Source of the DNA: Nanobdellota archaeon
Lineage (GTDB): Archaea; Nanobdellota; Nanobdellia; Woesearchaeales; GW2011-AR9
Assembly (NCBI GenBank): GCA_030647325.1
Contig: JAUSJN010000061.1
Coordinates: forward strand, 1-45,131
Length of the DNA: 45,131 nt
Direction of reading: 5' to 3'
The position numbers were made by a program, and so were the translations under genes. The stretch's first letter is position 1; the number at the start of each line of letters is the position of its first letter. Shown here piece by piece: positions 15,035-44,689 of the stretch. The notes beneath the pieces are model-generated. The model ran no database searches. It was given only the letters and a program-made list of their open reading frames with translations, and was not told the DNA's origin.

Positions 15035-15049
15035 AAAGTCCCCCCTCCC
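15035..15049. repeat. Attachment repeat of element 1 containing the tRNA-Tyr 3' end
   Basis: AAAGTCCCCCCTCCC identical to 8934-8948. Confidence 0.85.
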
Positions 15050-15260
15050 GGACTTTCACCAGTTATCACGATTAGTTTTAGGTGACTAAGCGAATGCAAT
15101 GAGCGCAGTCGCCCCGCCTCCCAAGTGGCGTGACACTTGATTTGAACCGGGGATCCCTCGGTGACTACACGACTGATTGTTTTTCATCCAGTTACGTCGC
15201 TAAGACGGTATGTCAAACAACTGCTACAGCCGAGTGTTCTAGCCGCTAAACTAAGGGGGG
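15039..15260 (-). tRNA. tRNA-Tyr(GUA) with two introns: anticodon loop (61 nt) and an 88-nt T-loop intron (15053-15140)
   Basis: rc: acceptor CCCCCCT/AGGGGGG (C1:G72, as in archaeal tRNA-Tyr), anticodon stem CTCGG/CCGAG with CTGTAG^A, T-arm CCCGG-TTCAAA[88]T-CCGGG; spliced length 73 nt. Confidence 0.9.
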
Positions 15261-15475
15261 ATTTCTTCTCTGAGTTGTGGTGTGTTTATTAAGTTTTTGT
15301 TCAGATGAGCCATTTCTTAAAACAAAAATCTTATAAACCAAAAAGTTTTACTAGAACATCATTACTAGAACATAATGTTCTTAGTATGAATAGAGGATTT
15401 TGAAAAAATCATTCAAAATCCTTCTTTGAAGGCCCAATCTTTTGTACAAGCCTTCAATAAATTAGAGGTGATAGT

Positions 15476-18123: not shown

Positions 18124-18395
18124 TGGCCCTACCGGGACTTTCACAGTTATCACGATTAGTTTAAGTGACTAAGCGAATGCAATGCAAGAAATGTGGAAAA
18201 TTACCACATTTCTGCACAGAAAACTGATCGTTGTCAGTTTTCTTGTGAGCGCAGTCGCTCCGCCTCTCAAGTGGCGTGACACTTGATTTGAACCCAGGAC
18301 CTCTGGCTTTCCAAGCAGGATTAATGGTATAGTTACGTTGAACCATTAACGGTCATATAAGACCAGCGCTCTAAACCAGGCTGAGCTATAGGGCC
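18124..18395 (-). tRNA. tRNA-Ile(UAU) with two introns: anticodon loop (47 nt) and a 149-nt T-loop intron (18138-18286)
   Basis: rc: acceptor GGCCCTA/TAGGGCC, anticodon stem CTGGT/GCCAG with CTTATA^A, T-arm CTGGG-TTCAAA[149]T-CCCGG. Confidence 0.87.
18185..18247 (-). repeat. 63-nt paired-hairpin module inserted within the tRNA-Ile T-loop intron
   Basis: Absent from the homologous tRNA-Tyr intron; similar modules at 29866-29923 and 29932-29993. Confidence 0.75.
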
Positions 18396-29599: not shown

Positions 29600-29735
29600 C
29601 GCCAGCGCTCGGATTTGAACCGAGAATCCCAAAGGGAGCAGTTGACTCTCGGTGGGCTTTATGCCCGCCATTTTGATGCAACTTTCCTAAAGTTGCTTTC
29701 GAGACTGCCGCAGTACCGGGTTGTGCCACGCTGGC
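29600..29735 (-). tRNA. tRNA-Ser(CGA) with a 54-nt anticodon-loop intron (29644-29697)
   Basis: rc: GCCAGCG/CGCTGGC, anticodon stem GCAGT/ACTGC with CTCGAA^A, variable arm TCCCTTTGGGA, T-arm CTCGGTTCAAATCCGAG; spliced length 82 nt. Confidence 0.9.
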
Positions 29736-29865
29736 ATAGAATTTCTGTTAAGAAATTGTTATTTAAATCTGCTTATTCCACTAGTGTACTTCACTAGTGG
29801 TTTTACAACGGGTAAACATAAATTGGAATAAGCAGGGTCCGAACGAGAGACCCGAGCGAAGCATG

Positions 29866-29923
29866 AAATAAAGAAACTACTTTATTTCAGCTCAGAAAAG
29901 AAATCGTTGTTTCTTTTCTTGAG
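29866..29923 (-). repeat. Paired-hairpin module, tandem copy 2
   Basis: rc CTCAAGAAAAGAAACAACGATTTCTTTTCTGAGCTGAAATAAAGTAGTTTCTTTATTT; same architecture as the tRNA-Ile intron module. Confidence 0.7.
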
Positions 29924-29931
29924 CGAGCATG

Positions 29932-29993
29932 CAAGAAATTAAGAAACTACTTAATTTCTGCACAGAAATACAATCGTTGTAGTATTTCTTGTG
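29932..29993 (-). repeat. Paired-hairpin module, tandem copy 1
   Basis: rc CACAAGAAATACTACAACGATTGTATTTCTGTGCAGAAATTAAGTAGTTTCTTAATTTCTTG. Confidence 0.75.
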
Positions 29994-30048
29994 CCACCTA
30001 TCTTTGATCGGTGGTGGTCTCGAGTGATTGACACTTGTTAAAGAAAAA

Positions 30049-44403: not shown

Positions 44404-44515
44404 TTTCCTTTTGTAGCTTCAAGGATAATGGCATTTATTAGCTCTATAATACCAAACAAGGAAAAGAGTATTAAATTTGGCTCTGGCGTTTTAGAAGTTA
44501 ATAAAGTAATAAAAG

Positions 44516-44649
44516 CGCCATCGGCCGGATTTGAACCGGCAATCCTAGAGGGACTGGTTCTCTTTTAGGCGGGCTTTATGCCCGCCGTTTGGTGCAGCTT
44601 TATGAAGCTGCTTCAAGACCAGCGCAATACCGGGTTATGCGACGATGGC
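44516..44649 (-). tRNA. tRNA-Ser(UGA) with a 52-nt anticodon-loop intron (44560-44611)
   Basis: rc: GCCATCG/CGATGGC, anticodon stem CTGGT/ACCAG with CTTGAA^A, T-arm GCCGGTTCAAATCCGGC; spliced length 82 nt. Confidence 0.9.
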
Positions 44650-44689
44650 ATATCCCTGTTTTATAAGAAATAGTTTATAAAAGTTTAGG

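Follow-up and report, generated by a model that had tools for sequence, protein, structure and literature searches.

The interval at 29860–29993 of the window (the whole stretch of 45,131 nucleotides analyzed here, contig JAUSJN010000061.1 of a Nanobdellota archaeon) probably consists of two copies of a ~60-nt non-autonomous mobile DNA element, formed by two hairpins each and nested in a larger repeat; judged from the sequence data, the mobile-element part of this explanation is very probable. The initial annotation had described two paired-hairpin modules at 29866–30036, and these are real, as the CCACC/GGTGG stem, the bulged A, the bulged T, and the compensated feet are all present in the sequence, but its starting point omits 6 nt of module 2. 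The features considered below are the following.

29930–29993, minus strand: module 1, a double-hairpin element with its flanking CA dinucleotides (core 29932–29991; target CA, centre TG); the homologous repeats L022 and L025 of the same genome lack the module
29992–29993, minus strand: left-hand CA of the duplicated target site of module 1
29961–29962, minus strand: central dinucleotide TG of module 1, the reverse complement of CA
29930–29931, minus strand: right-hand CA of the duplicated target site of module 1
29860–29923, minus strand: module 2, a double-hairpin element with its flanking CT dinucleotides (core 29862–29921; target CT, centre AG at 29891–29892)
18183–18247, minus strand: third window module, within the T-loop insertion of a tRNA gene (target CA, centre TG)
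15035–15148, minus strand: homologous T-loop insertion of another tRNA gene, module-free (empty site, single CA)
29767–30036 (outer limits approximate), minus strand: larger dispersed repeat (composite B) hosting both modules, with homologous copies L022, L025, L188, and L198
About 29825–29835 and 29769–29779, minus strand: arms of the second large hairpin of composite B, CTGCTTATTCC / GGAATAAGCAG

The window modules are 64–65 nt long, flanking dinucleotides counted, and the family follows a single formula, [xx] C-A-hairpin1-G-nn-C-hairpin2-T-G [xx], where xx is a 2-bp target duplication and nn is its reverse complement. The hairpin arms are usually (A/T)GAAAnnnnn, terminal inverted repeats are present (CAAGAAA...TTTCTTG or CATGAAA...TTTCATG), and the formula, being identical to its reverse complement, is matched by both strands. 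The rule that the left and right dinucleotides are identical and equal to the reverse complement of the centre is kept by 143 of 177 distinct copies, the chance being 1 in 256 per copy. The rule-breaking copies are mostly one base off: in 14 only the two flanks agree, and in 20 the centre matches one side only, proportions that fit single point mutations, except for an excess of copies with AA/TT flanks. Among the rule-keeping copies, the dinucleotide classes are CA/TG (80 copies), TA (25), CG (14), AG/CT (12), AA/TT (11), and GA/TC (1); YR dinucleotides account for 119 out of 143, compared with a background of 22%, RY dinucleotides are absent, and the base preceding the dinucleotide is a purine in 121 out of 143. 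The feet appear compensated because the duplicated 2-bp target supplies their outer letters and its complement the inner ones: feet CAC/GTG and GCA/TGC represent the CA/TG class, and feet CTC/GAG and AGC/GCT, the CT/AG class.

Two loop classes are seen, ..CGA and ..CTA, with 65 mixed pairs versus 11 and 13 same-class ones, and from this predominance of mixed pairs the element may have two distinct ends. The earlier claim that the CAACGA loop is constant holds for the three window copies but not across the family, where AAACTA is the most frequent of many loop sequences. A scan with the bare formula (CA-hairpin-G-nn-C-hairpin-TG, leaving arm sequences free and imposing no dinucleotide rule) yielded 119 matches across ~1.04 Mb of the collected loci and none after local shuffling of these loci; the loci had been collected by sequence patterns, and diverged relatives are under-sampled among them.

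Gap-free unoccupied counterparts were found among the collected loci for 43 copies. For rule-keeping copies with an empty counterpart, 33 out of 40 empty sites carry exactly one copy of the same dinucleotide, i.e., the target site is duplicated: one dinucleotide in the empty state becomes two in the filled state. In the window, the filled site at 18185 has its empty counterpart at 15043–15148, in another tRNA with the same T-loop insertion. Other occupied and unoccupied pairs are L142 and L120, with flank bases identical in 138 out of 138 positions, and L154 and L099. In two loci of the same genome, L022 (contig 47) and L025 (contig 38), the enclosing repeat is uninterrupted at both module sites, with a single CA and a single CT; the module 2 site holds a module in L198 and none in L188 (1097–1212), L022, and L025. 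Modules are also nested in each other: in L188, a module lies inside the hairpin loop of another one, as seen against the module 1 homologue of L198, and in L163, a module is inserted in the central TA of another module. Most copies (142 out of 166) are free of overlap with any ORF of at least 70 aa. As read from these genome comparisons, the filled and empty sites show precise insertion at a mostly YR dinucleotide, which afterwards flanks the element on both sides, and we infer mobility.

The initial annotation had ascribed the interval to a free-standing RNA or a relic, under selection on RNA (or single-stranded DNA) structure. A structured non-coding RNA, either free-standing or a tRNA-intron relic, that is selected here and whose compensations are RNA covariation would agree with the very stable predicted fold (z = −7.2), the strong covariation, and the location of the third copy within a tRNA gene, but we consider this very improbable. 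The fold energy was rejected as a sign of function, being uninformative for a palindromic repeat. Covariation, looked for as the initial annotation had proposed, is indeed strong: in the alignment of 11 copies from the same genome, each entered on both strands, from which the CM was built, 98.7% of cells are paired, 14 out of 24 pairs change on both sides and none on one side only, and one cell in 528 is G.U (each copy counted on both strands). Across 166 copies, the non-Watson–Crick cells comprise 21 G.T and 29 A.C, with no wobble preference; in nearly all copies, the arms are paired by Watson–Crick bases. Stem changes that are Watson–Crick on both sides, with no excess of G.U, point to DNA rather than RNA; hence, the DNA half of the proposed structural selection agrees with the covariation, whereas the RNA half does not, wobble pairs being no commoner than A.C. 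The element is, moreover, symmetric under reverse complementation, and the model fits both strands equally; copies occur at unrelated sites with empty homologues; and in L198, from a sister species, module 2 is identical, while the module 1 position holds a module with different, fully paired stems. Rfam and ARAGORN applied to the window gave tRNA-Lys as the sole match (at Rfam gathering thresholds), with no Rfam match at the module interval. Agreement with the rule, the existence of empty sites, and the symmetry are each indicative of DNA, and the supposed free-standing RNA or relic likely represents two mobile-element insertions in a dispersed repeat, for which unoccupied homologous sites exist.

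The initial annotation had also likened AAGTGTCAATCACTCGAGA to the start of the T-loop intron. This likeness is weak: homologues of the enclosing repeat start with GTCAATCGAAAACC and have no AAGTG/CACTT hairpin, and the intron homology of AAGTGTCAATC... was dropped due to its absence from the homologous repeats. Two other dispersed repeats with sharp borders and unique flanks are seen in L232–L237 (genome G003) and in L073, L113, L138, and L142 (genome G401), starting with GTATGTATTAAGT and ATCAAAAAAACAATG; they have no obvious target duplication, and some carry the module at one fixed position.

Four tRNA genes on the minus strand of the window are missed by ARAGORN and Rfam (18127–18395, 15035–15265, 29620–29738, and 44512–44652). 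As seen by eye, two of them have an anticodon intron and a long T-loop insertion (TTCAAAT^...AAAGTCC), and the other two resemble tRNA-Ser with anticodon introns. The T-loop insertions at 15035–15148 and 18127–18304 have AAnTGTCACGCCAnTT...TAATCGTGATAACTGTGAAAGTC in common, and an apparent free-standing copy of the T-loop insertion sequence directly follows a tRNA in L016 (about 1800–2220); this intron-like sequence may itself be dispersed. In L163 (G035:C197, 2000–2450), a tRNA-Ser copy is interrupted twice, by a module in its D-loop and by a nested array ahead of the T-arm; the first hairpin loop of this array seems to enclose an intact tRNA-Ser gene.

Further copies, also looked for as initially proposed, are found both in the same genome and beyond it. 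The CM identifies 32 copies in this 958-kb genome (64 matches, both strands) and the module in 34 out of 60 relatives. The strict pattern occurs in 85 stretches of GTDB contigs, almost all from Woesearchaeota or “Nanoarchaeota” MAGs, the exceptions being two Pacearchaeota contigs, one Altiarchaeales contig, where the rule is obeyed, and one Nomurabacteria contig. The latter (L090, MFTJ01000039) carries the archaeal composite repeat together with the module, and is probably a misbinned Woesearchaeota contig. Among 378 genomes of the class, the carriers are confined to the family of the window and one genus of another family, and the module family was not found in some 90 further families of this class; the reversed-pattern control gave 0 matches throughout, and there were 0 strict matches in viral contigs (IMG/VR). 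This patchy distribution suggests horizontal spread and bursts. The genome from the other family, G401, has 68 strict copies. Many of its contigs (JAUYDD, e.g., L120, L126, and L118) end at a module, and assemblies of such archaea may break at module repeats; at one site in this genome, the left and right hairpins are found in several combinations.

In the mechanism that we propose, the single-stranded element would fold through pairing of its central G-nn-C with either of the two flanking dinucleotides, forming a near-continuous rod of hairpin 1, a 4-bp G-nn-C/G-xx-C helix with the bulged A and T, and hairpin 2, and this fold would be recognized by a recombinase or transposase. The central dinucleotide could then be a very short guide matching the element to its target, which is possible, if short of probable. 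Somewhat more tentatively, the element might be a minimal self-guided mobile DNA, in which the centre pairs with a two-base target and thereby selects it, with the two central bases re-set or re-selected upon landing on a new dinucleotide. In L165 and L212, the flanks are TT/AA but the centre is CA/TG, i.e., the parental centre is kept in a non-matching target, and thus strict guide matching is not required. Close hairpin pairs differ in the dinucleotide in 27 out of 39 cases at unrelated sites (the pairs being non-independent) and in none out of 46 at related sites; as the independent clusters in this comparison number only about 7 (at ≤3 differences), we do not claim overwriting of the centre by the target. 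Hairpin lineage and dinucleotide seem to be only loosely tied, which would count against pure guide inheritance.

The pairing of guide and cleavage-site type at the hairpin feet, seen in 143 out of 177 copies as sequence complementarity only, brings to mind the IS200/IS605 family. An IS200/IS605-type MITE moved in trans by a Y1 (HUH) TnpA, via single-strand peel-and-paste with foot guides pairing to cleavage sites, would have a similar outline, with terminal hairpins and internal foot bases complementary to junction bases; in IS608, the target is recognized by base pairing, as foot or guide bases pair with those of the cleavage site (PMC5934647). Genes for Y1_Tnp are present in 14 out of 37 genomes of the family, and these genomes tend to have more copies (Mann–Whitney p = 0.01, uncorrected for phylogeny). 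This origin seems nevertheless rather doubtful. The Y1 transposase is absent from the genome of the window (90% complete) and from carriers G003, G017, and G018, only a 65-aa fragment-like match is found in G401, and the Y1 gene near the L163 modules appears by eye to have different hairpin ends of its own. The IS200/IS605 family would not be expected to leave 2-bp repeats at both ends, unless a shared guide forces them. Given the weak statistical association and several carriers lacking the gene, Y1 was set aside as the mobilizer. Half-module searches in six genomes and a scan for long-loop partners revealed no autonomous copy with a transposase gene between the arms, the genomes being incomplete; only nested modules and one tRNA-Ser cargo were found in hairpin loops or between half-modules, and no multi-copy proteins were seen in the loci of G401.

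An ordinary 2-bp target duplication could also have come first, with the centre matched later by hairpin-templated correction, either template switching or mismatch repair in an extruded hairpin. The 14 copies with equal flanks and an unmatched centre look as uncorrected insertions would, dinucleotides often differ between near-identical hairpins located at unrelated sites (the same non-independent pairs), and the stems are kept perfectly paired. We regard this sequence of events as unlikely, as the bulged A and T between foot and stem persist, while a copied hairpin should lose its bulges; fresh-looking insertions already match (L142, with 100% identical flanks, and the nested module of L188); and the proportions of rule-breaking copies fit point mutations of an initially matched state.

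The archaeal element has its nearest known kinds in double-hairpin elements of fungal mitochondria, GC clusters of yeast mitochondria, and guide pairing of the IS200/IS605 type, by likeness and with no claim of homology. The fungal double-hairpin elements (DHEs), known from Allomyces and Schizosaccharomyces octosporus/osmophilus, are likewise very short, non-coding, dispersed mobile units of two adjacent hairpins, sporadic between relatives, mostly intergenic, and sometimes located in RNA genes (PMC10085805, PMC2800124). Unlike the archaeal element, DHEs are mitochondrial, those of fission yeasts are GC-rich, and those of Allomyces are reported without flanking duplications (PMC2800124); no centre–flank rule was found in the literature consulted. 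Yeast GC clusters (GC42 and others) are palindromic mobile units of ~30–42 nt with flanking repeats AG or ACT, and, like the archaeal element, have stems more conserved than loops and units that merge and shuffle (PMC4478555). In the printed 38-nt and 32-nt clusters, base pairing is possible between the central GGT and each of the ACT flanks (with one G.U), which is the geometry of the archaeal element, a lead read by eye; GC42 has no such pairing. In contrast to the archaeal family, with its six dinucleotide classes and AT-rich stems, GC clusters are mitochondrial, GC-rich, and have few fixed targets.

Bulged hairpins and pairing of foot bases with junction bases are shared with IS200/IS605 ends and MITEs and with REP/BIME elements and their TnpA-REP. 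The archaeal element differs from IS200/IS605 by the lack of a Y1 gene in several carriers, the 2-bp flanking repeats, the single shared central guide, and the reverse-complement symmetry, and from REP/BIME by having no GTAG-type tetranucleotide 5′ of the hairpin in the module alignments. Class II MITEs are similar in being short and non-coding, with terminal inverted repeats (here CAAGAAA/TTTCTTG) and a 2-bp target duplication, but here each end is a closed hairpin, the duplication has its complement at the centre, and no parent transposon was found.

Our literature searches retrieved neither an archaeal element of this kind nor a description of the rule that links its centre to the duplicated target by reverse complementarity. 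Nested insertions are scattered throughout the repeats of these archaea, tRNA introns included, and strong covariation in palindromic repeats need not imply a functional RNA. The rule makes the movement of the tiny hairpin elements of organelles, a long-standing question, directly testable in sequence, since the guide, the target, and the empty site can be read for each copy. If the self-guided reading is true, the geometry of yeast GC clusters, in which the centre pairs with both flanks, would point to a mobility mechanism of hairpin elements shared across domains.
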